Part shown: one piece after another, positions 11,715-48,900 of the stretch
Position numbering within the stretch: position 1 is the first letter of the stretch
Layout: every line of letters begins with the position of its first letter
Origin: Gorsachius magnificus
Taxonomy: Eukaryota; Chordata; Aves; Pelecaniformes; Ardeidae
DNA length: 64,000 nucleotides
Direction: 5' to 3'
Assembly (NCBI GenBank): GCA_034008185.1
Contig: CM067084.1
Span: 13,473,385 to 13,537,384 of the forward strand
Made by a program: the position numbers and the translations under genes
The notes under the pieces: generated by a model
What the model saw: only the letters and a program-made list of their open reading frames with translations
The model's database searches: none
What the model was told of the DNA's origin: nothing

Positions 11715-12079
11715 CGCGGCCCCGCCGCCCCGGGACCCCAGGCCGGGCGAGCGGCTCCCCCCGGGGGCCGCCCACCGTCGCTCGCGCCCGCAGGGATTGG
11801 CGGAGGGGGAAGGGCGGGGCTCTCGCGAGATCTCCCCGCGCGGCCGCTCCCAGGCGGTGGGCGGGAGCAGCCGGGGCTGGGCCTGCTGTGACGCGGCGCT
11901 GCCGGCGGCGCGCGCAGGGGGCTGTCGTTGCGCCCCGGGGCGGCGGTTAACGGACCGCGGGGCGCGCGCCCGTCCGCCCGCCGCGCCGGAGGGAGGAGGA
12001 GGAGGAGGAGGAGGAGGAGAGCGGGACGGCCGCGCCCCCGTCCCCGTCCCCGAGGCGGTCCGCCCGGGCCCCCGGAGCG
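11557..12079 (+). promoter_or_regulatory. RAB33B: RAB33B CpG-island promoter and 5' UTR
   Basis: This is a very GC- and CpG-rich block immediately upstream of the RAB33B start. Visible elements are an inverted CCAAT box (ATTGG, 11,796-11,800), a GC box (11,811-11,820) and, directly adjoining it, the palindrome TCTCGCGAGA at 11,821-11,830. That palindrome is a known vertebrate core-promoter element reported to be bound by BANP and earlier linked to ZBTB33. No TATA box is seen. A run of 30 C (11,683-11,712) lies upstream, and a GGA-repeat tract (about 11,994-12,019) lies in the probable 5' UTR. The transcription start is inferred to fall shortly after 11,830. Confidence 0.75.
11683..11712. repeat. 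C30 homopolymer tract
   Basis: Thirty consecutive C on the + strand, so 30 consecutive G on the other strand, about 110 bases upstream of the TCTCGCGAGA element. A tract of this length can form i-motif or G-quadruplex structures and is also a typical place for length error in sequencing. Confidence 0.95.
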
Positions 12080-12327
12080 ATGATGGCCGCGTCGGCCGAC
12101 CTGGACTCCTCGCTGGAGCTGAGCCTGACGGGCAGCGGCGCGCTCCCCGGCGGGCTGCCCCCCGCGCGCTCCCGCATCTTCAAGATCATCGTCATCGGGG
12201 ACTCCAACGTGGGGAAGACGTGCCTCACCTACCGCTTCTGCGCCGGCCGCTTCCCCCCGCGCACCGAGGCCACCTCGGCGTGGACTTCCGCGAGCGCGCC
12301 GTCACCATCGACGGCGAGCGCATCAAG
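12080..12327 (+). CDS. RAB33B: RAB33B coding exon 1 (one-base frame break)
   Basis: RAB33B is a Golgi-associated Rab GTPase that acts in retrograde Golgi traffic and binds the autophagy protein ATG16L1. Exon 1 encodes a variable N-terminus, then [20 protein letters not shown]: the first beta strand and the P-loop GDSNVGKT at about residues 40-47, followed by [12 protein letters not shown]. Two ATGs adjoin (12,080 and 12,083); the second has the better context (A at -3, G at +4). The frame is correct to residue 65 (12,274). There one A is missing from the Ile codon of switch I, so the following bases encode the expected GVDFRERA block only in another frame. The exon ends at an AAG|GTACCG donor, the position where the family is split (just before IQLWD). 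Confidence 0.9.
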
Positions 12328-15300
12328 GTACCGGCCCGGCGGGCCCCGGGCGAGGCCTGCTGCTGGCCTCCGGCAGCCGCCGCGGCCCGGCCGCTTTGGG
12401 CCGGCCGGGGGGGGGGGGGGGGCCCCCGGGCTCCGACCCGGCTGCTGCCCCCAGGGAGCCCCGGGCCGGGGGGGGGCCGGCAAGCAGCTGGCGGACCGGG
12501 AACAGCGGGGGGGGGAAGGTGGGGGGGCCCCCCTTTAAAATTTTACCGCCCGGGGGTAGCCGGCCCGCTCCCATGGTGAATTCCGAACCTTTGTGCAGCT
12601 CTTGGCAGGCGTTAATCAACAATTTCTCCCTAAAATGGACTTCTAGGCCGATCTCTTACCAGTATTTTAGCGTTGCCTCTGCCCGGTGCCAGCAGCTTGT
12701 TGCCTCCCAGAAATTCTGCTTCTGGCTTTAGCAAGGCGTCGTGCTTAATTGGCTCAACCTTCAAGTCCACAAAGTGATGCAGATGCTACTGTTAGGAGCA
12801 TTTTGCCTAAAAAATGTCCTGTCAAAAAAATGAAGTTTGTTTGGGAGTGAACTGCTGCATCAGTGATAGCAATGCGTTATAACTTTTAATATTTTTTTTA
12901 GGACTCTGTTAAGCTTGCTGCATGTTTAGGCAAACGTGGTGCAGAACTGGGCAGTGACAGGTTGGCTGTCTAGCTTACATTTGACCATTGGTTTTTGCTC
13001 TGATTATAGGGTTAGCTAAAGCTTAGGCTTACAAAACTAAGTTCAGTGGAAAATTGGATGGGAGGGGGAAAAAACCGCTTTTTTTGCCTTCTTTGCACTG
13101 TAAAGCAAATTTTAAAAGTATATTAGTCTGCCCGGTAGATCCATAAATGCTAGTGGTGATCCTAACAGTCATTTGCAGATTAGACTACTAGCTGCTTACA
13201 AATGCAGGGATTTTTACTAGGAATAACAAGGTTTTAAACAGAATCCCCTTTTGTGTTACAGTTTGTTTCTATGAGCAAAGATTAATAAAGTATAGAAAAA
13301 AGGGAGAAGCAGTAGTCTTGGGATTGAACTTTCATGTTTGTTATCACTAGGCTTTGTAATTACAGCTTACAGTCATGTAGCTGAAAACTACAGTTTTTCC
13401 TTGCTTACTTACTGATTAAAGAAATTGCAGAGGGCATCTAAGTCCATTTGCTTCCTTTCTCTTGCCTTGTTTTCACTTCATATCCTTCCTTTTAACTTAA
13501 AAAGAAAAATGAGTAAGAGTCTTTGTTGTTCTTTTTCTTTATAAAAGCACTGAATAGCATTTCTTTGGCTGATAGTTGAGATTCTGAGCTTCCCAATCTG
13601 TTGCTGTCCGTGATGGAGGAGAGAACCTCCTGAGGGGTATCTTCTTGTCAGCACCATCTTATTGGCATTTTCACCACCTCTGGATCATGCCCGGCCTTTG
13701 TTGGAGAGAAGTGGAGAACAACATAGCATAATCCACAGTTCTGAGATGCTTCACATAGGTTATTGTACCATTTTGTTACATATGTTGTGGTAGGTTGTTT
13801 TGCTGTGTTCTTGAGAATGTACTAGTTCTGGTTGAGGGAGGTGGAGAACTGAAGGGGGCTCTTTTGGGACACGCTGTTTTCTGGGAAGTTCTGTTTCAAC
13901 TTTGAAAGGAATAAACTTTGTTATTATGGCCAGGACTCTAGCTCTTGGGGCGATGCTGTGTGTCATCAAATATGCACAAATTTTGGGGGTTTTGCTGCCT
14001 CTTCTCAATCATTTTCACCTTTCTTGCTTGTAGCAGTGAGCTCCAGCGGTGTCTGTTGAACCAGGAAAGAGAGAAGCTCAGATGAAGCGAAGTATTGCTG
14101 TTCTTGCTGTGCCCTGAGGGCTTGCTGAGCCGGGGAATTTTTCCTCTTGCCTTGAAGGAGGTTATGAAGTAGCATCTTCTCTTTCTCTCTTCTCCCTCCC
14201 CCCAGCCAGCTGGATGGTCATTCTTGTGCTGCTACAGTACCGAGCATTTCCTTTGCAGCTGGAAAATGCTGTGTCACTGGCAGGAACACAAGCACAGTTC
14301 TTCTCGCCGGGGGTCCCACACACAGGAATCGTGTCGAATTCCAAGACACAGGGGGCGAGTGTATTCCTTTGTAGCTTGCACAGTAGGCTAACAGCTTCGT
14401 ATGAAACACCGATGCCTAGATGTGATGAATAAATTAAAATTTTCAACAAATGATTTTTTTGCATTCTAAATTTTCCTCTTCCTAAATTGGTCTAAGCATT
14501 GAAAATTGAAGAAACAATGATGTCACTCTTTACTGACCTACATTAAAAGAGCAAACGATGCAAATGAAATTCAAAGAAGAAAGTCCAAACGTGATGTTCT
14601 ATACCTTTGAGCTTTTCAAGTTGGTTTTTTTTGCCCACATCTTGTAAAAGGAGACATAGTTTACCATTTTATCTTTATTGAAGGTCAGTTATGTTTTTAC
14701 AAGCATGTTATAAACCACGCATGCTAAGGGAGTCCTTGTTGAGAAAACAGCCATTCTGGATCCACAGAAAGGAGTCAGAAAGTGAGAGGTTGATAATTGA
14801 GTCAAATATATTTAAGTATCATTTGTCTTCCCTAGGGAGTGTGACAAAGTGATTCTGTCCACAGTTTCATTAGCTGAATTATGCTGTTAAACCAAATTTT
14901 CAAATCGCACGTTTTAAAGGGCTATTATAAAAAATGTGCTCCCTTGGAGAAGGGTGATACTGAACTAATAATGAAACAGTAATCTTAATGGTAATTCATC
15001 AATGCACATCTCTTAATGTGAACATTTTCAGTGTTGTTTTTCAGTAGAGCAAATATTTGGGGTGGCCAGAAATGCAATGGTCTCCTCAAGTTCATCTGGT
15101 AAGAGGGGAAAAAGAAACTTCTAAAGTGTGAAATTTTCAGTCTTGGGGAAGGATTTGCCTCTCAGTGCAAATGATTCCATGTGAAGAATTAACATTTTTA
15201 ATTTGAGATAACACCCTTCAAGCTTGAAAGCTCCATGTAAATAAAATTGAGGAACTGTAGTTTCAGCTTAACTTGGAAGATATGTAAGCCTTTAATTTAA

Positions 15301-17931
15301 TTTCCCCTTCTCTACCCAAGGCTGGCAAGACACTTGTGGATGTGTGCTTGACTGAAGCATGACTGATTTCTGCTCTGTGAATGAGGTGGGGAGAGAAGTA
15401 CAAGCTTGCAGCTGCCTGTGAAAATGAGCTCCCTCTTTAAATTAATTCGATACAGCATTTTCCAAGATTACAAGCATTCCTTAACATTATGTTGTCTGAA
15501 CATAGGGATTACTTCAGTCTGGGTGTTGCTTTCTTCTCTCTTTAATTTGTCAAAGTCCAAATTAGTGAAAATTTTCATGAGTCTCCTGACTTTATAATGT
15601 TTTGTAAGTGCATGGAACTAGAAGTATCTCTTCATCTGGGTAGGTGACTGATTCTTACCCAAATTTAGGGGCCTGTATTTAATCTGATTGTCTAGACTCC
15701 CTTAACAGACTGTGGAGATGCAGTCAGTTGTGTTTAGAGCATAAGACCATTGGCAAAAAGCAGGTATTTGCTCTAAAATGAGATGGATTGCAAGTGACTA
15801 CCATTTCCTGCAATCAGAAGCTAGGGTGACTTGCCTTGCTTTTCTTAATAATCTTAATGACCCTTTCAGAAGCAGCACATGGATCTTTATAAGTCTGTGG
15901 ATCAGAAGCTGCAGATAACTGGACTAGACCACAGAAGCCAAGCTGTTGTGATGTTCTCATTTAAATTCTCAGTTCCCCCGATGAAACCAGTAACTGCCAT
16001 TTCCACCTGCTCCAGTCTGAGTTTTTGTCAACAGGGTTGCACATAATAATGCAGAAAAAGTCACACCATCCTGAAACATCGCTTACTCTTTTTCCTTCAC
16101 TCCATCACACCAGTGATTCATAACATCCTGTGATCGACTTGTGTATCTGGATTGTCATCTGTTTTAACAATTTCCAAACTGATGAATCCCGCACTTAGAG
16201 GAAAAGTCTTTATTATTAGTCACTGTTACCAAGACTTTGCATCTGCTTCTATTCAGTTTCACCCTATTCCTACTGTTCCATCTTTCAAAAAAAATGTTAT
16301 GTGATGCTGTAATCTTCTTCTCTGATGCATCGTAGCTTCTTGCCATCAGCAAATTTCCCTGGCACTTGAGTTTCCTTTTTTTAAATATCAAAGTCACTGG
16401 TGAAAATGGTAAACAAGGCAACTTTCAAGGCACTTGCAATTTCTAAATAAGTTTTACTGAAAGATTTGGATCAAAGGAATGCATAACTATGGTAATGGGA
16501 GAACAATTTCATCAGGGGAAGATACTGGCTGTACCTTTCATGGCAACAGATTGAATTTTAAATTAACCTTCATTGTTTACAGAACATTTAATATTCCTTG
16601 AATTCTGAGTCTGAAGAAAAAAATCTCCTTTCATTCCCAGGGAGGAAACGTTTCTTCCTGACATTGCCTGCTCAAAGTTAAAAGCTGCAGTACCAATCAA
16701 ACTGCCTCAGCCATCAGGGATCAGCTGTACAGGACAGACAGGAAGCTAGGACTCAGCTTTGACCCAAGAAGTCTAACGTTGTCTGTCAGTGTTAACACCG
16801 TCACTAAGGTGTGTCTGATAGAGCCACACACTAGTTCATTTCTTACAGTGTGCAGTTAATCTAGCATTGTAGGTGACCTGGCTCTGACTGCCGAAGATTG
16901 CAGTCCCGTGTCTCCTGGGGAGCAAATTTGTTAAAATATCACTGTGTCCAGTAAGTGCACAGTTTTGTAGCGTACGCTACGCATCTGAGGACTCCAAGCT
17001 TCCATTGTACCAGGATGACGGATGCATTTAAAATTTTTATTAGTTGTTGCTTACATCTGCTTGCGCATCAAGGCTTACTTTGTTTTAATCTGGACCCGAG
17101 AAGTTTGAAAGCATTTTGGTTCTTCTGAATGTTTTTGGGGTTTTTTTTGTCCATTACACTGACTAGGCTTCAAACAAATATCTTCGGTCTCTTTGGGATA
17201 GAATGATGCGTACCTGGGAACAACAGTAGCATGTTAAACTAACAGGAGGTTTATGTTTTGATGGGGTTTTTGTTTGTTTGTTTGTTTGGGTTTTTTCTCT
17301 TTCATGCATGCTTTGATATTACAAACCACAGTCTGGTCTTAGCTTAAGCATTAAATAAGCTTAAGCTAGAGGTTCATCACAGGAGGGTTTGATTCCAGTA
17401 GATACACGGCAGAGAAAGATTTATTTGTCCTGTTTCTCGTGGTGGTGGTGTTATTCGTGCATGGTTTGATTTCTTCTTACTTTCATACACTACCACAATA
17501 GGCAGTTAGCTTCATGATAAGAACAAAACCTTGGGGAAGATGATGTTATATGGCAATGAAAAAATCATGTCGGCTGAGAGTTGTGCTGTGAAATACCTGT
17601 TGTTTTTTCAAATAAAAGTGTTGCCAAGACTTCAGGATTTGTTTTTGTAAAGACCTTACAAAATACACGCTCCAATGAACCTTAAGAAATACGTATTTGT
17701 GATCAAGTTGCATCAATCATTTCTTCCTGGCTTCAATTGTGAGCAGCTTTGAAAGCAAAAGTTTCTGAAATTGTGTGAAAGCAACAATTTTTTTCAGCAC
17801 AAACTTTTCAGATTAACTCAGAAGAGTGGATTTCTGTGATTGTGTGCCTTCCCTGAGCTACAGGTAATTTGTATTATTTGCCAATATGAGTAATAAACCA
17901 TTTTTTTCTCTCATTGTCTTTCCCCTTTCAG
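12328..17931 (+). other. RAB33B: RAB33B intron 1
   Basis: This 5.6 kb intron runs from GTACCG at 12,328 to a strong pyrimidine tract and CAG at 17,931. The first 250 bases are still CpG island, with G homopolymers (16 G at 12,407-12,422). The rest is AT-rich, with no repeat family or nested gene that I can recognise. Confidence 0.8.
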
Positions 17932-18323
17932 ATCCAGCTATGGGATACGGCTGGCCAGGAGCGCTTCAGAAAGAGCATGGTGCAGCACTATTACAGGAAC
18001 GTACACGCTGTTGTGTTTGTGTATGATATGACAAACATTGCCAGTTTTCACAGTCTGCCATCTTGGATAGAGGAATGCAAACAACACCTTCTTGCCAACG
18101 ATATACCACGGATTCTCGTTGGAAATAAATGTGACCTGAGGAGTGCTATTCAGGTACCTACGGACTTGGCCCAGAAGTTTGCTGATACTCACAGTATGCC
18201 GTTATTTGAAACCTCTGCCAAAAACCCCAATGACAATGACCATGTGGAGGCCAAAATTAATTCCCCCAATCTCATAAACTCATAAAGCCTGAACCAAAAC
18301 CTGCCACGATCTGCTGGTGTTAA
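17932..18323 (+). CDS. RAB33B: RAB33B coding exon 2 (tail rearranged)
   Basis: This exon supplies the rest of the GTPase fold: [15 protein letters not shown] (G3 and switch II), the Rab-type core, NKCD (G4, near 18,123-18,137) and ETSAK (G5, near 18,208-18,223). It matches the known Rab33B sequence almost without change up to DNDHVEA. After that the family's hypervariable tail (about 27 residues before the KPEPKPA block) is replaced by about 31 bases. The open frame then ends at a TAA at 18,283-18,285. The expected KPEPKPA block and the terminal CWC double-cysteine prenylation motif are still present in another frame, ending at TAA 18,321-18,323. As sequenced, the product would lack the geranylgeranyl acceptor cysteines and could not attach to membranes. 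Either the gene is newly broken or the assembly is wrong here. Confidence 0.88.
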
Positions 18324-31511: not shown

Positions 31512-32423
31512 ATTTTAGGTGCCTCAGGAGTTGACTGGAAGCTGTATTTCCTTGGGCAAGAGGAAGGACCAAGAGGTTCTCTAGAGAATCTCCAGCAGAG
31601 GACCTTGGTCTGTATCTGTAATAAATTTTAGCAGAATGGGCTCCCAAATAAGCATTATTTTTTTTTAAACCTTCAGTCTCCAAATTTGAAATAGAAAAAG
31701 CAGAACTGAATTCAGAGTATCTAAGTTACTCTGTAAGAGGAGCTACTGCAACCCCGGTTCCCACTACACCCTGGCATTACACTTCAGCACCAAACCCAAT
31801 TGTACCGACCCACGTACGCCCCACAGAATCCACACTTCGACAGAGGTGCCTGGATGGCACTGGCCAGGCTTCGTATCATAAACGTCACCTGCCCCCATCG
31901 TGGCCAAGAAGAAAAGGAAAAGCACTCTGAAGCTCAGTAATGAAGTGGGTCCTTCGTTATCCTTCACCCAGCACCATATTATCCAACTGATTCATTGGGT
32001 AAGGGGGACAAATCGAGACAGCAGCGGGAGAGGGGAAATACTCCACCACCAGTTTCTTTTAAAAATGAATTGTATTTAATATTTGAATGCCTAAGGCTAG
32101 CGCTGCTAGACAAACTGCATGATGAATTGTAGTAGAATAAAACATGATTTAAGTACAAAAGCTGGAGGACAAAGTGCTCACGCTTTCCAGAGGCGATGAG
32201 GTATTTTAGCTATACAAAGGCTGAACGTCCAAAACCATTGGCAGATCTTCTGCTTTGCGCTGTCATCTTTGCTGAACGCTGGGCATTCAATAGTTCTCTC
32301 TTCCCGTGGGTGTTTTTCAAAGGGCCAAGGAAAAGCGCATAACCGTCTTTAAAGATGAAGAACTTCTTACATCTTTCTGGCCATGTTTTTAGACTAGTAG
32401 CTCTAAAATGTTCGACAGCTTTT
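31512..32423 (-). other. Probable 3' UTR and flank of the tetraspan gene
   Basis: This lies directly downstream of the stop codon at 32,424 on the - strand. No coding signal is seen. I could not pick a convincing polyadenylation signal on the - strand, so the transcript end is undetermined. Confidence 0.4.
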
Positions 32424-32527
32424 TCAAGACATTCTGACATACGGTGGAGGTTTGGATGCATCTTCCTCTGCATCTAAATCCTGGGCTGGAAACCGATCTG
32501 GGAAGTTAAAAATTCTGTCTCCAGGGC
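32424..32527 (-). CDS. Tetraspan gene, coding exon 6 (last)
   Basis: The acceptor is a textbook pyrimidine tract ending CCCCACACAG. The two bases GC complete a Ser codon with the last A of exon 5. The frame then reads [16 protein letters not shown], an acidic stretch and KPPPYVRMS before TGA. The agreement of phase across this junction supports the whole gene model. Confidence 0.87.
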
Positions 32528-35500
32528 CTGTGTGGGGAAGGAAAGAGGAAAACACTAAACCTGGTGTAGACACTTGGCACAAAAACCTGAGTTCTTTTTG
32601 GGTCGGAGCATTTTGGTTATCAGGATTTTGGCCTGGGACAGGTCAGGATGTTCCTTCCACATCCCTGGTGAATATCCAAATACACGGGGGGAAAAAGCTA
32701 CTCACTTTGTACAGCGCAAACCATTTCCACAGCCTGATTTTGGTCCTCGCTAGGTTGCAACCATTCCTACGAATGAAACAATGCCATCAAAAACCTCATC
32801 TGTGACTTTGTTCAAGAAGATAGACCTGAACTCACTTTAGAAGTCCATGTAGTCCACTCCTCCTAAAAAGTTTTAGATTGAAAGTTTAAAGCAGCTTCAC
32901 ATTACACACTCAGTATTTTTAGTCAAGAACAGCTGCCTCGTAACCCGTACCCATTCATTCCTTGCCCAACAAGATGGTCAGTTGGCCACATTTAATACAG
33001 CACCAGAATTACCCTAGTGAAGAAGTGGCTGGTATTTACTGAGCTCACTTAGCAGAGAGAGGCAGCCTGTGCCCCATCACTGCAGGTGGAGTCCTCATAA
33101 ATCAGCAGTAAAACGTGGTGTCTCATCTCTCCCGTACGTCACACACGGTACAGGGGGTATTTTTACTACTGAATTTGTAGTTCTAGGGATAAGGCATCTT
33201 GGTGTGTAAGTACCAGTAAGTCTCCGAAATGCTGTGCCAGGAGCAATTGTTGGTTTACAGGTGAGAGAAGGGGTGGGTTGTGAGGAGGGCAGGAGTTCAT
33301 AGGAAATGGGACCACAGTGGCTTGAGCGCAAATGGTTTGGAAAATGGGGATAGCTTATGCTATGTCTTACACAAGTCTGTAAGCAAGAGGAAGGTAGCAA
33401 CAGGAAAAATACAAAAAATATAAAACCCTTCTAACATCCACTTATTTCTTAGAATTAGCCCTGGATAACCAAGGTAGAGCTGAGGTTAGGTTTACAGAAG
33501 AAAACCACATCTTCTCCCCAGTTTCCGGTGACGAGTGGTGTCCCTCAGGGGTCCGTACTGGGACCGGTGCTGTTTAATATATTCATCAATGACTTAGACA
33601 GCGAGATCGAGTGCACCCTCAGCAAGTTTGCAGATGACACCAAGCTGAGTGGTGCGGTTGACACACCAGAAGGACGGGATGTCATCCAGAGAGACCTGGA
33701 GGGCCCGTGTGAACCTCATGAGGTTCAACAAGGCCAAGTGCAAGGTCCTGCACCTGGGTCGGGGTAACCCCCAGTATCAGTACAGGCTGGGGGAAGAAAG
33801 GATCGAGAGCAGCCCTGCCGAGAGGGACCTGGGGGTGCTGGTGGATGAAAAGCTGGACATGAGCCGGCAATGTGCGCTGGCAGCCCAGAAGGCCAACCGT
33901 ACCCTGGGCTGCATCAGGAGAAGCGTGGCCAGCAGGTCGAGGGAGGGGATTCTGCCCCTCTGCTCTGCTGTGCTCTGATGAGACCTCACCTGGAGTACTG
34001 CGTCCAGCTCTGGAGCCCTCAGCACAAGAAGGACATGGAACTGTTGGAGCGGGTCCAGAGGAGGGCTACTAAAATGATCCGAGGGCTGGAGCACCTCTCT
34101 TATGAGGACAGGCTGAGGGAGTTGGGCTTGTTCAGCCTGGAGAAGAGAAGGCTGCGGGGAGACCTGATTGCGGCCTTTCAGTATCTAAAGGGGGCCTATA
34201 GGAAAGATGGGGACAATCTTTTTAGTAGGGCCAGCTGTGACAGGACAAGGGGTAATGGTTTTAAACTAAACCAGGGTAGGTTTAGACTGGATATAAGGAA
34301 GAAATTCTTTACAACGAGGGTGGTGAAACACTGGAACAGGTTGCCCAGAGAGGTGGTGGAGGCCCCATCCCTGGGGACATTCAAGGCCAGGTTGGATGGT
34401 GCTCTGAGCAACCTGATCTAGTTAGTGGTGTCCCTGCTCACTGCAGGGGGGTTGGGCTAGATGACCTCTAGGGGTCCCTTCGAACCCAAAACATTCTATG
34501 ATTCTATGATTCTCCCCCTCCTACCCACACTAGGTACAAATAAATGGGTGCCCTGGGCCCCTCACTCACCATCCCAGTTACGCTATCGTAGCACGAGCAG
34601 CGAGGAAGACTCCGGCATCCCAAGTAAGCCATCACCAGCACGACAAAAGCACTGCAGATGGATGCAGCTAGCATGGTTACGTTAGCGCCCTTGACTACTT
34701 TATTAAGTATGAACTTCTGCAAGCAGAAAAAGAAATGTTAAAGCCATATTCAAAAAGTGAAGCTCTCCACCAAAAAAAAATATTCTAATGACTGCAAGAA
34801 TGCTGTGATCGCATCAGAGGAGATCGATTCAGAGTCAGTGTTATTGAAGGCTTTTCTGCCTGTGCTCTGCAGAACAAGCCAAGTGTGGACCTCAAATAGG
34901 AGAAGAGCAAGCAGTAAAATTAGGCTTCTGATTAAATGTAAGAGACTATGCAATGGCATCAGGTTTGGAAATAGCTTTAACAAAGAGTAGAAACCCAAGG
35001 AATGGCTGCTCCTCTTCACGCTGAGTATGAGAAATGTCTTCTTGCTATACGGCACCTTAGCAGCCTGACATTTCGATTTGCCCTGCAATAAACTAATGAA
35101 CAGCTTCATCCACCTGGAATGTCTTCATCCCCACAGGGAGCCATCGCTTCTACCAGGTTTGGGGTGCAAAGGAGCTAACTCATTCCTTCTTTTCAGCTTT
35201 ACCATGGAGGATACACTTGAAGTAACACCCAGCTTTAACCAGCTGACCTGTAACTTTATCACCTGAGGTGCACGCTGGAGAGGCTTTGAGCTTTGCAACG
35301 GCTGTCTCAAAACCAGGCCGGGGATATGGCCAGCACCTACCCCTTTTCGTCAGCCACACCATGACTTTTTCCTGGCATGACCCAAACCCTTTTGCACTCA
35401 GCAGCAGCAGTTATCCCGCCAGCGGCGTGTTTGGGGACATACCCAGTGCGCACGCCTCCAGGGGCGAGCTGTTGCTCTCAAGCGGCTGCTTCTCAGACGG

Positions 35501-37770
35501 GGGCATCCAGGCCAGCTGGGCATCGGTTCACGTAGCCACCGATGCCAGCCATGCCGCAGCAGCAGCGAGCGGCAGGAGCTAGCTATAAACTGCCCATCTA
35601 GTCCTGCGTGGCTTTTGTGGGTTTCAGGACCCAACTGTAGACTTGGGCAAATGTTCTTAAAGAAGTGCCCTGCTGCAGGCACCACTTCAAACTCTAATTT
35701 AGGCACTCTGGAAGTCTGGTTCCTAGTCATGCCTAGTAACGTTTGTAGATTAAGATGGTCATGTTTCCCAGTAATAAGCATGATATCAGTACTTACGGTA
35801 TGGATAACATGGACTGGGGCAGAACTCAGCTCCTCCTCTTCACCATAGTTCAGCGTGAGGGAGCTATAAACGACTACGATGAGGATGGCAACACAAGAGA
35901 TTATGGAAGCAACTATCAGCACATTCACCTAGAGAGCAAAACCAAAGGAGAAAAAGGGAGCAGGAATTAAAAGTATCCTCTGACAAATCCACGCAATTAA
36001 TAACAGACAAAATGTACGAACAAGCATTGTAGGTACAAGCCTTTGACCTCCCATAATACCAAAAAGTAGCAACAGTCACCGGGAAGCCAAACACAGAGCA
36101 GTAAAGGTTTCCATGATACAGAATTCCTGAGCTACAGTTGAGTCCCAAACCTTACCCACTGGTGCTAGCTGGACCCAAAGACTTTGTTTTTGGAGATCGC
36201 TTACTTATAAACAATACCCCCCCCTTGGACTTTACACGGCTGGAGGGACCTGCCTAGGAAATGAAAGTCAATTAACTTGTTTCCTATTTTAGTGTACACA
36301 ATTCTTAATAACAGGAAGGAACACCAAAAGAAATTCATGCAAAAGCAAGCGTTTTTATAGATTTTTGCTCGTTATTAGAGCCACAGCTCGCCCGCTGCAG
36401 CAGAAAGCGAGGTAACACTGCGTCATTCCTTTTGCTTAGGAACGTAGCAGCTTTTATGAAGGTAACTTGCAGAAATAAGCTCGCAATCCTGCAGAACAAC
36501 CAGCCAGCTCATTCCCCATCAAAACTGTTTTCAGTTGCCCCAACAACATTTCGCTCCCACCCCGTACACACACAGTCCCGTCCAGTTCCCCCCCCCAGGC
36601 TTACGAGAACTGGATTCTTCCTCTGAGAGGAAAACAAAGCCAGGACGCCTGGGACTCCCATCACCTGCAAGAGCACAGAAAGAGTTGGTAATGGGGAGAC
36701 AAAAGTATCGGATTCGGAAGATAAAACTACTACAGAGCAGATGAAAAGCCTTCGTTTTCAAGGCTTGGATCAGAGTAACTGTTGGGTCAGAAACGGAAGG
36801 AGAATTGCTGATCTCTCCTGGTTTCCTCTGCAGCATCTCCTGGGGGCAGGACACTGCGTGAAACGCATCTTGCCCACCCGCTACCCCCCCACGGCAGTAA
36901 CTCTCTGACTGCCTTTACAGCTCTGGCCAAAAAATAAAACTGATTAAATAAGTCCAAATAAAGTGCTAAAAATGTGCACTGCTTTCCCAATTCCTTACGC
37001 ATCTTGCAGATGGAAGGAAGGTATTACTGAGGGGAGACGGGCAGCCTCCGGATGGAAGAGAGAGCTCCAGTACAGCTCCCTTGTGGCGTGGCTCACCGGG
37101 GTACGAACAGAAACATCAGGGTACCGAACGCCGGGGAGCAAGGATGCCCGATGCCCGCTCCTTGGTGCGGCACAGAGAATTAGTGGCACTGTGCTGCAGG
37201 ACACAGATCATCTCCCAGATGTTCACCTACCTGGTATGAGGATGAAGTGTTCCCCTCCTAATCTTCGGTGGCCCCTCTGCGCTTCTTCTGCAAAAAACCC
37301 TGTCACCCTGTCAAGTGCCACCGTGCCCCATTTTCTACACTATCCAGTAGAAATGTATTTTATTCAGCTCCTCCAGGGGGAAGGCTGCTTGCACTCTCCT
37401 GCCTGTACCATGATCAGGACACTTTTGTTATCTGGGTTCAAAGCAGGAAACCAGGGAAGAGCTGGCAAGAAGCCCTGGCCTCCCTCCCACCCCCAAGCTG
37501 AGCACTAGTACTTAGCAGTGGGGTGGGACGGACACACACACACACACACACCCCCATACCCCAAAAACCACAAAACAAAGCATAGAAAATAGAGTGCAAC
37601 TTTACCATCCCAGCCCAAATCGGAGCTCTGGTTTTGCCCAGCTGAGACTCCGTTCTGAAAATGCTGTCTATGAACCCGCTGACGACGCAGACCGTGCTGA
37701 AGGCTATCTGGCACAGGCCCAGCACGACCATCTTCCTCTGGTTGAAGATGAAATACCGATAGCGATCCAT
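32424..37770 (-). CDS. Unnamed four-TM protein with C-terminal PPPY
   Basis: Six coding exons on the - strand splice with canonical GT-AG ends and matching phases into a 222-residue protein: 37,606-37,770; 36,605-36,664; 35,797-35,928; 34,570-34,716; 32,706-32,766; 32,424-32,527. It begins [13 protein letters not shown] at an ATG with A at -3 and G at +4. Predicted membrane segments lie at about residues 14-35, 50-67, 76-100 and 132-155. A longer, acidic loop (GEEEELSS) lies between segments 3 and 4, with an NVT sequon at residue 131. The tail has [17 protein letters not shown] and ends KPPPYVRMS, a PPxY motif of the type bound by WW domains of NEDD4-family ubiquitin ligases. The layout resembles MS4A and ENTREP tetraspan proteins in general form, but I cannot assign it to either. 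Function is unknown; a WW-ligase adaptor in endosomal or plasma membrane is only an inference. A CR1 copy sits in intron 4. Confidence 0.85.
32706..32766 (-). CDS. Tetraspan gene, coding exon 5
   Basis: A 61-base exon between ATTCGTAG and an AAA|GTGAGT donor. It starts in phase 0 and leaves one base for the next exon. It encodes [20 protein letters not shown] (residues 169-188), a soluble part of the tail. Confidence 0.85.
33529..34515 (+). mobile_element. CR1 retrotransposon, 5'-truncated, copy 2
   Basis: It begins TGACGAGTGGTGTCCCTCAG, part of the conserved reverse-transcriptase block, and ends with ATTCTATGATTCTATGATTC. Compared with copies 1 and 3 it has a deletion of about 17 bases near 33,700 and a small insertion at about 33,966-33,976 (GCTGTGCTCTGATG), so the frame is broken. 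It lies in intron 4 of the tetraspan gene, in the opposite orientation to that gene. Confidence 0.93.
34570..34716 (-). CDS. Tetraspan gene, coding exon 4
   Basis: A 147-base, phase 0-0 exon between TGCTTGCAG and an ATG|GTGAGT donor. It encodes residues 120-168: the NVT sequon, the fourth membrane segment and the juxtamembrane [14 protein letters not shown]. The cysteines there are possible palmitoylation sites by position only. Confidence 0.9.
35797..35928 (-). CDS. Tetraspan gene, coding exon 3
   Basis: A 132-base, phase 0-0 exon between CTCTCTAG and an ACC|GTAAGT donor. It encodes residues 76-119: the third membrane segment, starting [12 protein letters not shown], then the acidic loop [10 protein letters not shown]. 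Confidence 0.9.
36605..36664 (-). CDS. Tetraspan gene, coding exon 2
   Basis: A 60-base, phase 0-0 exon between CTTGCAG and a CTC|GTAAGC donor. It encodes [20 protein letters not shown] (residues 56-75), the rest of the second membrane segment and a basic turn. It is too short to stand out as an open frame and was found by splice-site reading. Confidence 0.87.
37532..37551. repeat. (CA)n microsatellite
   Basis: An AC dinucleotide run on the + strand, followed by a C run. In the transcript of the tetraspan gene it reads as a UG repeat about 55 bases downstream of the exon 1 donor. Confidence 0.95.
37606..37770 (-). CDS. Tetraspan gene, coding exon 1
   Basis: Encodes residues 1-55, from [13 protein letters not shown] through the first membrane segment to APIWAGM. 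It ends in phase 0 at a GGGATG|GTAAAG donor. A likely acceptor (TTTATGCAG, exon start 37,783) lies 13 bases upstream of the ATG, so an untranslated first exon probably exists. The frame is also open upstream of this ATG, but that extension is only GC-rich sequence. Confidence 0.88.
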
Positions 37771-37782
37771 TCTGCTTGGGAT

Positions 37783-38769
37783 CCTGCATAAACCCCCCGC
37801 CACCTGCGGAGGCCGGGGAGCTGCGTGGCGGCCCTCCGGCGAGGGGGAGAAGGGCTTTCCCTGGACAGGAGGCAGAAGGGTTGGGGGCATCAGCACTCGG
37901 GGAGCAGCGGCTGGCGCCAGCGGTGCGCGCGGCTGGACCAACGCGTTCACCGGGAGTACAGAGTTCGTACAGACGGGCAGCGGTGACAGCGAGCAAAGGT
38001 GAGCGGCCTTTTGGGAAATCCCTCGGGCCGCAGGGAGGCAGGTGCCCGGGCCACCTTTTCCGAGGTTTCCAGACAGAGATGCCCGACCTTCACTTCAGAC
38101 CTTTTTTTTCCTTCGGGGTTTCTGCTGCCCCAGAAAGGCACGGGGGGCTGCGTGGGTTTTGTTGCTTTGAGATGAGCTGGGTGCCCGGCTGGGAAGCAGC
38201 CGATTCCCCCCCCCGCCCCGCCCCGCGGGCAAGCCTCGGGCAGGGGGCGTCCCGGGGCGGTGGGACCGGCTGCCCGGGGGTGCCGGCACCCGAAACCCCA
38301 CTTCTCCTCCCCTCCCTGACCCCGCTGCTGCTTTTACCAAGCCCGGAGCAGCCCCGGCGGCTGCTACAGCCGTGCGGGCCGAGCCCGCCGCCCCCGCCCG
38401 GCGGAGGCACCGAGGGGACCGGACCGACCCGCCCCGACCCCCGGGGGGGGGGCGCCGCGCCGGCGCCGCCCGGAGCCCCCGCTGCTCCTCACCTTGCGGG
38501 GCGGGGAGGGGGAGAGCTCCGGCGGAAAAAAGTTCCGGGTCGGTGCGAGAAGAAACCGAAGAGGCTGGGAGAGCCGCGCCGGGAGCGGCGCAGGGAAGGC
38601 GGCTGCCCCGCCCGCCTCCGGGAGCGGCTCCGCGGGGAGAGGGCCGGCCCCGGCCCCCCCGGCCCCCCCCCCGGCGCCGCCTCTCGGGGCGAGGAGGGCT
38701 CGGCCGGGCCAAAGCCCCTGTGCAGCCCCGCAGGGAGGGGAGGGCCCCGCCTGCTGCCCCCCGGCCGCG
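37783..38769 (-). promoter_or_regulatory. CpG-island promoter of the tetraspan gene
   Basis: GC- and CpG-rich sequence lies upstream of coding exon 1 on the - strand, with many GC boxes and no TATA box. A candidate donor (GCAAG|GTGAGG) ends a possible untranslated first exon at 38,493; the matching acceptor would be at 37,784. Long open frames in this island on both strands reflect base composition and are not called as genes. Confidence 0.65.
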
Positions 38770-39211
38770 GTAAGAACAGTTCAATAATTGAAATAAAATA
38801 AACTAAAAGAGTAGCAGTAGTAACAATACTAATAATGATAATAATATACAAAGCAAGTGATGCACGATGCAGTTGCTCACCACCTGCTCACTGATGCCCA
38901 GCCCGGCCCCGAGCAGCGATCACTGCCTCCCAGCCAAGTCCCCCCAGTTTCTATACTGAGCAGGACGTCCTATGGTCTGGCATAGCCCCGTGGCCAGTTG
39001 GGGTCAGCTGTCCTGGCTGTGCCCCCTCCCAGCTACTTGTGCACCTGGCAGAGCAGGGGAAGTGGAACAGCCCTTGACTGGTGTAAGCACTGCTCAGCAA
39101 CAACTAAACCATCCGGGTGTTATCAACATGATTCTCATACTAAATCCAAAACACAGCCCTATGCCAGCTACTAGGAAGAAAGTTCACTCTATCCCAGCCA
39201 GAACCAGCACA
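38770..39211 (+). mobile_element. 3' part of an avian endogenous-retrovirus LTR
   Basis: It starts at GTAAGAACAGTTCAATAATT and continues through the AATAATGATAATAATATAC and GATGCACGATGCAGTTGCTC stretches. It ends CTCTATCCCAGCCAGAACCA plus GCACA, the 3' end of the same LTR family as the 31.4 kb fragment. An AATAAA at about 38,800 is part of the LTR. It abuts the CpG island of the tetraspan gene directly. No retroviral genes are present. Confidence 0.75.
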
Positions 39212-45925: not shown

Positions 45926-48900
45926 CTAGACAAAGAATAAACACCTTTGCTAGGCTTAGCTGTCATTTCACAGACTCTGTTAGCCCCTGGTATAGCTTCA
46001 GAAGTCACTCACAGCTCAGAGTAATATCACATAATCTGATATCAGATGAGTAGACTGCTTTGAGTCAATCTTACGAAGACTTAAGGTAATAAGGGCAAAA
46101 ACATCGATATAGTAAAACAGCTTTGTGTAGCTCTATTACTTGACGTTTTTCAACAGTCCTGCAACACTGCTTGTTTGTAAAAAAATAAATAAAACAAAGG
46201 TAACCACTGCCACATGCCTTGGGCTTGCAGAGGTAAACATCTGCACGACAGGAAAACAGTGTAGAGTATGAGAGACTGAAGAGCATGGAAAATTGCTCAT
46301 CTTTATTTCCTCGGTACAGGTTGCTGACCAAACATACTTCCGTAGGCCTTCTCCCAGGGCCCCACAGTAAAGGGAATTGGCTTATTTAACCAAGGAAAAC
46401 TATTTTCTACATCTCTCTCTCCACAGGTCTGTTTGGTTATACACTGGTATGAAAGTATTTACACCCTTGAGCGTATGTACACATCAGAAGTTTCCTAGTG
46501 CTCTGCACCAACTGCGGAGCAGCAAGATGCTTATTTTTTGAGTTTCAGAAACGAAAGCACATTTGATGGTGCTGTAGTTCAGCAAATACGGTGCAGTCCT
46601 AGCCAAGCTAGGATTTAGAGCTGTGCTTATGCGTTTTAGAATCAAAAGGCACCTCCTGAAGTTCATGACAAAATTAACACAGCTGCAAACTTCAGGATAC
46701 TCCGATGGTGTTAAGTCCCAAGAGACATCAAGCACCCGCAATGCCTGCCTGGACCCCTTTCTCCCAGCCCCACCAGCTGCTCCTCACTCAGCTGCCCAGA
46801 AACACCCTGTGAGCCCGGACCACCAGGCTACAGCTTCCCCTCCGAAACCCGGGACTCTACTTACGGGTCGTAGATGCAGTTCGGAGTGAAAGAATGGTTG
46901 GCCTTATGCCCCAGCGAGGCACAATACTTGGCGGCGTGGTTGTAGGGCTCTGGCACGTCTATAACTGTTTCGTCATCCAGGGATATTGTATTTCCATTGA
47001 GGGCCCAGTCTCTGCTGTCTACCTAGTTTGCAAGGCAGAAATCCAGTGTGTGTGTGTGTGTGTGTGGAGGGGTCAACTCTGCCAGCAGTTTGAAAGCAAA
47101 CATTCAAATACATGCAACTAAAGCTTTTCCTGTAAGTCATTAAAAAACCCCAAACAATCACCACTTTTTCATATATATATATATATACACACACATAGGT
47201 GAACATGCACTTTCTTTCAATTAAATCTTAACGGTGGGAAGGGGGTAAAATCCTACTATAAGGAGATTTCAGAAGGAGCAATGAAAATTCAGACTGACTT
47301 TTTTCTCTCCTTTACCTCCTGGTGTGTAATTCGCACTCCATTGTAAAAGGACATAACTGTACTGGCTTCTGCTGCTATTTTCGAAAATAATCCTTCTCCA
47401 GCACTGGAAATGAGAGAGACATCAACATACACCCTACAAAGGGAAAAGGGCATGGAATTAGCGATTGGCTACAGTTTTCATTGACTACTGCAATGTAATA
47501 ATAAAACTAATAATAATTTAAACCCTCCAAATGCAACTCCTTCTCCTTCCTCCCCTCCATATGTTCTCTCTATTTTGGCGAAATGGAGATTTGGTGGGAA
47601 GTGGAGGCTGATTTAGTTTTATTAGTTTTAAAAGTGCCAATCTAGTATTACTCCTCAGCAATGGCTTCAACTCAGGAACACCCTCCATAACATACCAGAA
47701 TCCCAGAGGTCCCCGCTAAGCTGAGGTTGCTGGTGTAAACATGCACAGATTATTACTCCACTGAGCAAGAGTTTTCAAGGTGAAGCCCTAGATCTTCAAG
47801 CACGTGATGCAAATTAATGCCAGCAATTTACTAATCAGGTATTTCAGAGTATCAGAAAAGAACTACAATGAAGATATCTAGAGAGCAAAGCCTCTTGAAA
47901 GTCTAGGTAAAAAGTGTAATTGTGGAATAGCCACAGAAGAGACATCACCGACTGACTACAATAAGACAACTGCTGAGGAACGTGTTTTGACATTACAGGG
48001 TTGTCACAGACAGTATCTCACTTTCCTCCGCTTGACGATTTACTCCTGCCACTTTGCTACATCTGTGGGGAGAGGAGAAAACTTTGTACAACACACACCA
48101 TTCAGTGAGAGACACTGAATGCAGCCCACTGCAGCCTGAACCTAGTTACACATCTAGAAAATAGGGAACAGCTTACTTTTTTGCTCAGAATATTGTAGAT
48201 GTGGACTGTTAGTGCAGTCTAGGACTTGACTGAACATGTCTTTGAAACGCTAAGAAATTATCCTAGTTTAATCTCTTAAAAAGTATTACTGTGTTCTATC
48301 CACTAGAGTGCAATTTTGTTGTGCGGATTAGAAAGGAATTCGATTAAGTCAAACTCTGACTGATGTGCAGTAACGGGTTCCATTTTGCAAACCCTTGCAC
48401 ACTTTAAAAATATTGAAATGAGAAAAGGTTTGCAAAATTCGGCCCTAAATATGTAACAGCAAAGAAATATGGACAATACCGAAAGAGGGCAGAAGAAAAA
48501 AAAAGCCTACCTCTCTGACTCATAAGGATCAGGAAGAAGTGCATTTGTAGAAATACAGGATGAAGTAGATTTGTCAAAACTGTACACTGGGCCTAAAAAA
48601 AACCAGAAATCGACAAATGAAATAAACTAAATGGCAGTACTGAAAGCATGCAACCCTTAACTTAATCAAGGCATTAAAAAATTAAATTTTAATGACTGGA
48701 AGAAATAAATGCTATGCTTCCAAAACAAGGTATTAAACAGAACTGCACCTGTAAAAGGTCTTCAGTGAGATACTGTTTCTTGATTATTTTTCCCCTCAGC
48801 ATTATCACAAAATGGTGATATATACGTTCTTCAAATTACCAACTTTTAAAGGAAGACTGGACAGTCTTTCAAAACTGACTCTTCCAGAGTCTCTGATTAA

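Follow-up and report, generated by a model that had tools for sequence, protein, structure and literature searches.

We analyzed a 64,000-nucleotide stretch of the genome of Gorsachius magnificus (GenBank assembly GCA_034008185.1, contig CM067084.1, positions 13,473,385 to 13,537,384 of the forward strand), referred to here as the window, in which an unnamed four-transmembrane gene had been predicted between RAB33B and SETD7. Six exons on the minus strand, between positions 37770 and 32424, were found to join into an open reading frame (ORF) of 222 residues plus a stop codon, 669 nt in all (Table 1). All five introns begin with GT and end with AG, and their phases are 0, 0, 0, 0 and 1, exons 1 to 4 comprising whole codons and exon 5 comprising 61 nt. 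The original prediction of six in-phase exons with canonical splice sites, two of them only 60 and 61 bases long, was thus reproduced in every particular. The start codon lies in the context AGAATGG, and an ATTAAA occurs past the stop codon at 32080, both as read from the sequence.

Table 1. Features of the gene and its surroundings, in window positions, with the matching intervals found using softshell-turtle protein P0040. TM, transmembrane helix; UTR, untranslated region.
Feature	Position	Strand	P0040 match	Description
Exon 1	37606..37770	-	37573-37770	165 nt; ATG, N-terminus, TM1, short loop 1, start of TM2; residues 1-55
Exon 2	36605..36664	-	36599-36664	60 nt, in-frame; most of TM2 and the TM2-TM3 turn; residues 56-75
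Exon 3	35797..35928	-	35770-35937	132 nt; TM3 and acidic loop 2; residues 76-119
Exon 4	34570..34716	-	34567-34719	147 nt; TM4 and juxtamembrane Cys motif GCRSLPxCxCYD; residues 120-168
Exon 5	32706..32766	-	32704-32769	61 nt; first part of tail; residues 169-188
Exon 6	32424..32527	-	32430-32525	104 nt; end of tail and stop codon
PPPYVRM codons	32430..32450	-		PY motif overlapping YxxPhi; tyrosine five residues from the C-terminus
GC-/CpG-rich stretch	37801..38800	-		directly upstream of exon 1; probable promoter/5' UTR (inferred)
Rab-type ATG/P-loop exon	within 11951-12535			
RAB33B exon	within 17890-18282	+		best Protein Data Bank (PDB) matches are Rab-33B
SETD7 SET-domain exon	within 46864-47022	-		PDB matches are SETD7; sole SETD7 exon mapped

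The gene model was checked independently by searching the whole 1.18-Gb assembly with a softshell-turtle protein (P0040, 223 residues) from another genome; 10 candidates were scored. The six best matches were the six exons, in the same order and orientation and all on one contig (C4). Exons 1, 3, 4 and 6 were individually significant, with E-values from 5.7e-20 to 1.6e-6; the 60- and 61-base exons were not (E 0.11 and 0.26), yet were correctly placed. Two other rows, elsewhere in the assembly, had E-values of 1.45 and 2.49, and no second copy of the gene appeared among the 10 candidates. When the DNA of exon 3 was used as the query, the sole match was exon 3 itself.

Orthologs and family of the gene

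We searched for homologs using the bird protein, a coelacanth protein and a profile (A3) built from 18 sequences of tetrapods and lobe-finned fish, and considered the best 120 of 273, 120 of 278 and 120 of 333 matches, respectively. Together, the three lists held 188 different proteins, 182 of them named, the names being those of 90% clusters. Among the matches listed for the bird query, identities were 77-94% for full-length bird proteins, 71-72% for turtles (65% for a turtle form lacking exon 2), 69% for a crocodile, 57-63% for amphibians, 58-63% for lepidosaurs and 57% for the coelacanth. The 94% identity extended over the full length of annotated proteins of an ibis, a stork and an eagle, so a chance origin of the ORF is excluded. 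The coelacanth query added chimaera, sharks, rays, gar, bowfin, sturgeon, paddlefish, reedfish, lungfish and many teleosts, and many of its matches bear the name zgc:113425. The orthologs listed range over birds, crocodile, turtles, tuatara, squamates, amphibians, lungfish, coelacanth, ray-finned fish and cartilaginous fish. They are labelled zgc:113425 in fish and XB5734924 in Xenopus, whereas those of birds and reptiles are labelled 'uncharacterized LOC'.

Members of the zgc:113425 group are full-length best matches of the gene, which was found in a single copy. The gene is thus the bird ortholog of fish zgc:113425, and we read the relationship as one-to-one because one copy alone was found in the assembly. 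The 12 fish and chimaera members compared (A1) are 222-229 residues long, contain the same domain and show 49-58% identity in the alignment. Both ends of the protein are the same apart from one change, in that the teleost tail mostly carries LPPY or a weaker form rather than PPPY; no structural difference was seen.

No mammal was named among the 182 named proteins of the 188 listed, although a mammalian ortholog further down the matches is possible. The coelacanth list extended to 255 bits, a level at which full-length proteins of birds, lizards and snakes were still being matched, so a mammalian ortholog with similar rates of evolution would be expected on the list. Judged from these sequences, the gene was most likely lost in mammals. 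The suggestion that it had been kept in birds and perhaps in reptiles and fish while being lost or overlooked in mammals agrees with the matches listed, which extend to amphibians.

Conservation was measured in an alignment (A2) of 95 sequences, nearly all full-length, chosen from 175 of the listed proteins. Seventeen columns were invariant, and the predicted constraint was borne out. Exon 2 was the best conserved exon, with a mean majority frequency of 0.84; conservation was lowest in the two tail exons, exon 5 (0.62) and exon 6 (0.60). The N-terminal YRYF occurred in 90 of the 95 sequences. Cysteines C153, C159 and C161, which follow TM4, were each at least 90% conserved; that they are palmitoylated is a guess.

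The exons might in principle belong to a pseudogene or have been joined fortuitously, and some bird models of the locus do begin in intron 1 or skip exons, which is the only support for such an explanation. Against it stand the absence of any disabled codon, the GT-AG boundaries of every intron, the close identity to other birds and the invariant columns. We consider its likelihood negligible: the intact frame, the bird identity and the exon matches of P0040 rule it out. That the six-exon gene is genuine and orthologous to the zgc:113425 group is all but certain.

The whole protein matched the Pfam family PF04103 (CD20-like) with 69.6 bits against a gathering score of 27.9, and the coelacanth and elephant shark orthologs scored 70.3 and 75.8 bits, respectively. 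When the genome was searched exon by exon with PF04103, exon 1 alone was listed, at 24.3 bits, under the cut-off. Consistent with the predicted four-transmembrane protein, hydrophobicity revealed four stretches, and an AlphaFold2 model of the ibis ortholog contained four transmembrane helix regions in the CD20 arrangement. In the model, the two outer loops have about ten residues each, the second being acidic; the alignment contained no conserved cysteines in either. The best-matching folds include FceRI-beta and CD20, and the closest solved sequence was FceRI-beta (phmmer E 0.0094; profile E 0.0021). A lizard ortholog, P0157, bears the automatic name 'Membrane-spanning 4-domains'. Overall, the protein very probably belongs to the CD20-like family and is predicted to adopt a CD20-like fold. 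The ortholog profile matched the bird's other CD20-like exons with 5-9 bits, scores that do not suffice to order ENTREP, sarcospan and others by closeness. Claudin/PMP22 (E 3.2), TgpA_N (E 0.51) and BROMI (E 0.026) were all under their Pfam cut-offs and were rejected; NCBIfam yielded only rows far under cut-off.

Surroundings and alternative gene models

PDB matches of the flanking exons confirmed the location of the gene in the window between RAB33B and SETD7, on the strand of SETD7 and tail-to-tail with RAB33B. A frog ortholog, P0112, is filed under the name SETD7, which suggests adjacency to SETD7 in the frog; that of another frog, P0167, is filed under USP38. In 200-base bins, the stretch directly upstream of exon 1 had a GC content of 0.61-0.80 and an observed/expected CpG ratio of 0.54-0.94. 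From this CpG-rich stretch, we infer a separate promoter for the gene. A bacterial promoter scan upstream found nothing, its model being bacterial and not informative for a vertebrate. Intron 4 contains, at 33459-34510, fragments of antisense ORFs as well as a repeated ATTCTATG end, which we take to resemble the 3' part of a CR1-type long interspersed nuclear element; Pfam found no family for a 190-residue ORF in this intron.

Five unnamed assembled proteins (P0126, P0139, P0140, P0156 and P0163), by similarity from fish, lungfish and squamates, are probably spliced transcripts, because their contigs (1.0-1.9 kb at longest) could not accommodate introns of this kind. Exons 2 to 4 are those that can be skipped without a frame shift, and database gene models with such skips were found: 17 of the 188 listed proteins lacked exactly exon 2, with WAGM, WAGV or WTGT joined straight to the start of exon 3, while four models lacked exon 3 and three lacked exon 4. 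The models without exon 2 came from twelve birds, a turtle, two squamates, a frog and a basking shark. RefSeq models are often based on RNA reads. The pigeon form without exon 2 still passed PF04103, with residues 16-58 matched.

In several bird models (P0054, P0029 and similar ones), exon 2 is extended in frame into intron 1. The stretch of the window that resembles this extension is split over two frames, so the extension is unlikely to be a general first exon. In addition, the bird-like assembled protein P0105, from an unnamed contig of 1008 bases, joins a MamL-1-domain exon, presumably exon 1 of MAML3, in phase to exons 3-6 of the gene. In the assembly, the MamL-1 exon is found some 316 kb upstream of the gene, on the same strand, and ends at a GTGAGG donor precisely at the joining residue of P0105. 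Long-range read-through splicing, trans-splicing or a rearrangement are possible explanations.

Tail signals and possible functions

The tail of about 60 residues is variable but for its end, which reads PPPY[IV]R[LMF] in most sequences; in alignment A2, P216, P217, Y218 and R220 had majority frequencies of 0.91, 0.96, 0.99 and 0.91, respectively. A YxxPhi motif was present in 94 of the 95 tails, the exception being P0021, in which the tyrosine is replaced by cysteine. By contrast, PPxY occurred in 73 tails and [PL]PxY in 80. With groups sorted from names, and one unnamed teleost placed by similarity, PPxY was found in 1 of 13 teleosts, 1 of 8 elasmobranchs, the single chimaera and 70 of the 73 others. 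Given its near-universal occurrence and the scarcity of PPxY in teleosts and elasmobranchs, the constraint on the tyrosine signal is the more general one, and presence of the PY motif depends on the lineage.

The best overall explanation, which we advance tentatively, is that this CD20-like tetraspan is a small adaptor in endosomal traffic. By analogy with the family, both termini would be cytosolic. The YxxPhi motif could then be bound by the mu subunits of adaptor protein (AP) complexes, leading to endocytosis or endolysosomal sorting, and the overlapping PY motif, in most of the lineages sampled, by the WW domains of NEDD4-family ligases. Within the bilayer, the conserved transmembrane helices may bind a partner membrane protein, such that the protein would convey this partner through endosomes along with the ligase/AP machinery, acting at the endosome or plasma membrane. 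Skipping of exon 2 would delete TM2 and could turn this activity off. This combination of AP complexes, NEDD4-family ligases and a membrane partner is conceivable, and is put forward with still more reserve. Its model is ENTREP/FAM189A2, as described in PMC8811627: the PPxY motifs of that protein bind the WW domains of ITCH, and it resides at the plasma membrane and endosomes, where it aids the association of CXCR4 with ITCH. A role as a ligand receptor is unlikely for the modelled protein, which has almost no ectodomain.

ENTREP1-3 (FAM189A2, FAM189A1 and FAM189B) resemble the gene in having a CD20-like region, one or more cytosolic PY motifs and an exon 1 that ends in phase 0 near the conserved W-A-G of TM2. 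However, sequence similarity is near noise, and the cytoplasmic region of ENTREP1 comprises 343 residues with PPSY and PPPY, according to PMC8811627, versus a short tail with one motif here. Since the gene lacks the long cytoplasmic region with at least two PPxY motifs that marks ENTREP/FAM189, we did not file it as an ENTREP. The first intron of the gene, which follows WAGM at 37606, lies one codon earlier than that of a gene of the same assembly that we take to be ENTREP-like, where it follows WAGFS, in the same phase. At L007 (C9:37410235-37413375), presumably another ENTREP-like sequence, the exon-1/exon-2 junction is seemingly read through without an intron and stops soon follow; L007 is possibly a processed pseudocopy.

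The protein could instead resemble CD20 or FceRI-beta in function, as an oligomeric four-pass subunit that tunes the calcium or other signalling of another receptor at the plasma membrane, its tail motifs serving turnover only. This is rather unlikely. The gene shares its Pfam domain and best-matching folds with these MS4A proteins, and the closest solved sequence and the automatic name of P0157 point the same way, but the sequence link is weak. CD20 has a long, disulfide-bonded second loop and FceRI-beta carries a signalling immunoreceptor tyrosine-based activation motif (ITAM), whereas the outer loops here are very short and free of conserved cysteines, and no ITAM was noticed in the tail. 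An improbable alternative is a structural tetraspan that, like sarcospan (SSPN), steadies a multi-protein membrane complex. Sarcospan shares the CD20-like fold, and in a gene of the assembly that is presumably sarcospan-like, an intron lies near the same place, following WAGII one codon later in the same phase. Nevertheless, a shared fold is no proof of a shared function, loop 2 and the tail differ from those of sarcospan, loop 2 being short and without cysteines, and the tail motifs indicate traffic. No PY/YxxPhi end was found in the translated exon that ends the open frame of this presumed sarcospan gene.

A bolder extension of the endosomal adaptor is a long shot: a jawed-vertebrate trafficking adaptor, lost in mammals, with a topology switch conserved from shark to bird. 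The three-pass form that results from skipping exon 2 would place the PY/YxxPhi tail across the membrane, where it would be silent. If true, none of the mammalian models would be known to have this pathway.

A literature search with zgc:113425 and the other identifiers of the gene found no paper discussing the gene or its function. In the main text of an MS4A phylogeny (PMC2826416), the terms zgc, SETD7, FAM189 and TMEM255 do not occur; a non-mammalian 'MS4A' sequence in its supplementary list could be this gene. The original prediction had the gene as one without an informative name, and its orthologs indeed carry placeholder names. It had also regarded the gene as undescribed, which holds for function, on which no paper was found, and does not hold for annotation, as zgc:113425 or 'uncharacterized LOC' with the known domain PF04103. 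The gene is real and old, belongs to a known superfamily and had been annotated before.

With its N-terminus and membrane core conserved from shark to bird, and apparently dispensable in mammals, the gene would be invisible to biology centred on human and mouse. It would add to the CD20-like superfamily a small member with hardly any ectodomain. The end of the tail reads PPPYxxPhi in most lineages and YxxPhi in nearly all of those sampled. Because teleosts and elasmobranchs have often kept one of the two overlapping signals and weakened the other, nature itself provides a comparison to tell which signal is essential.
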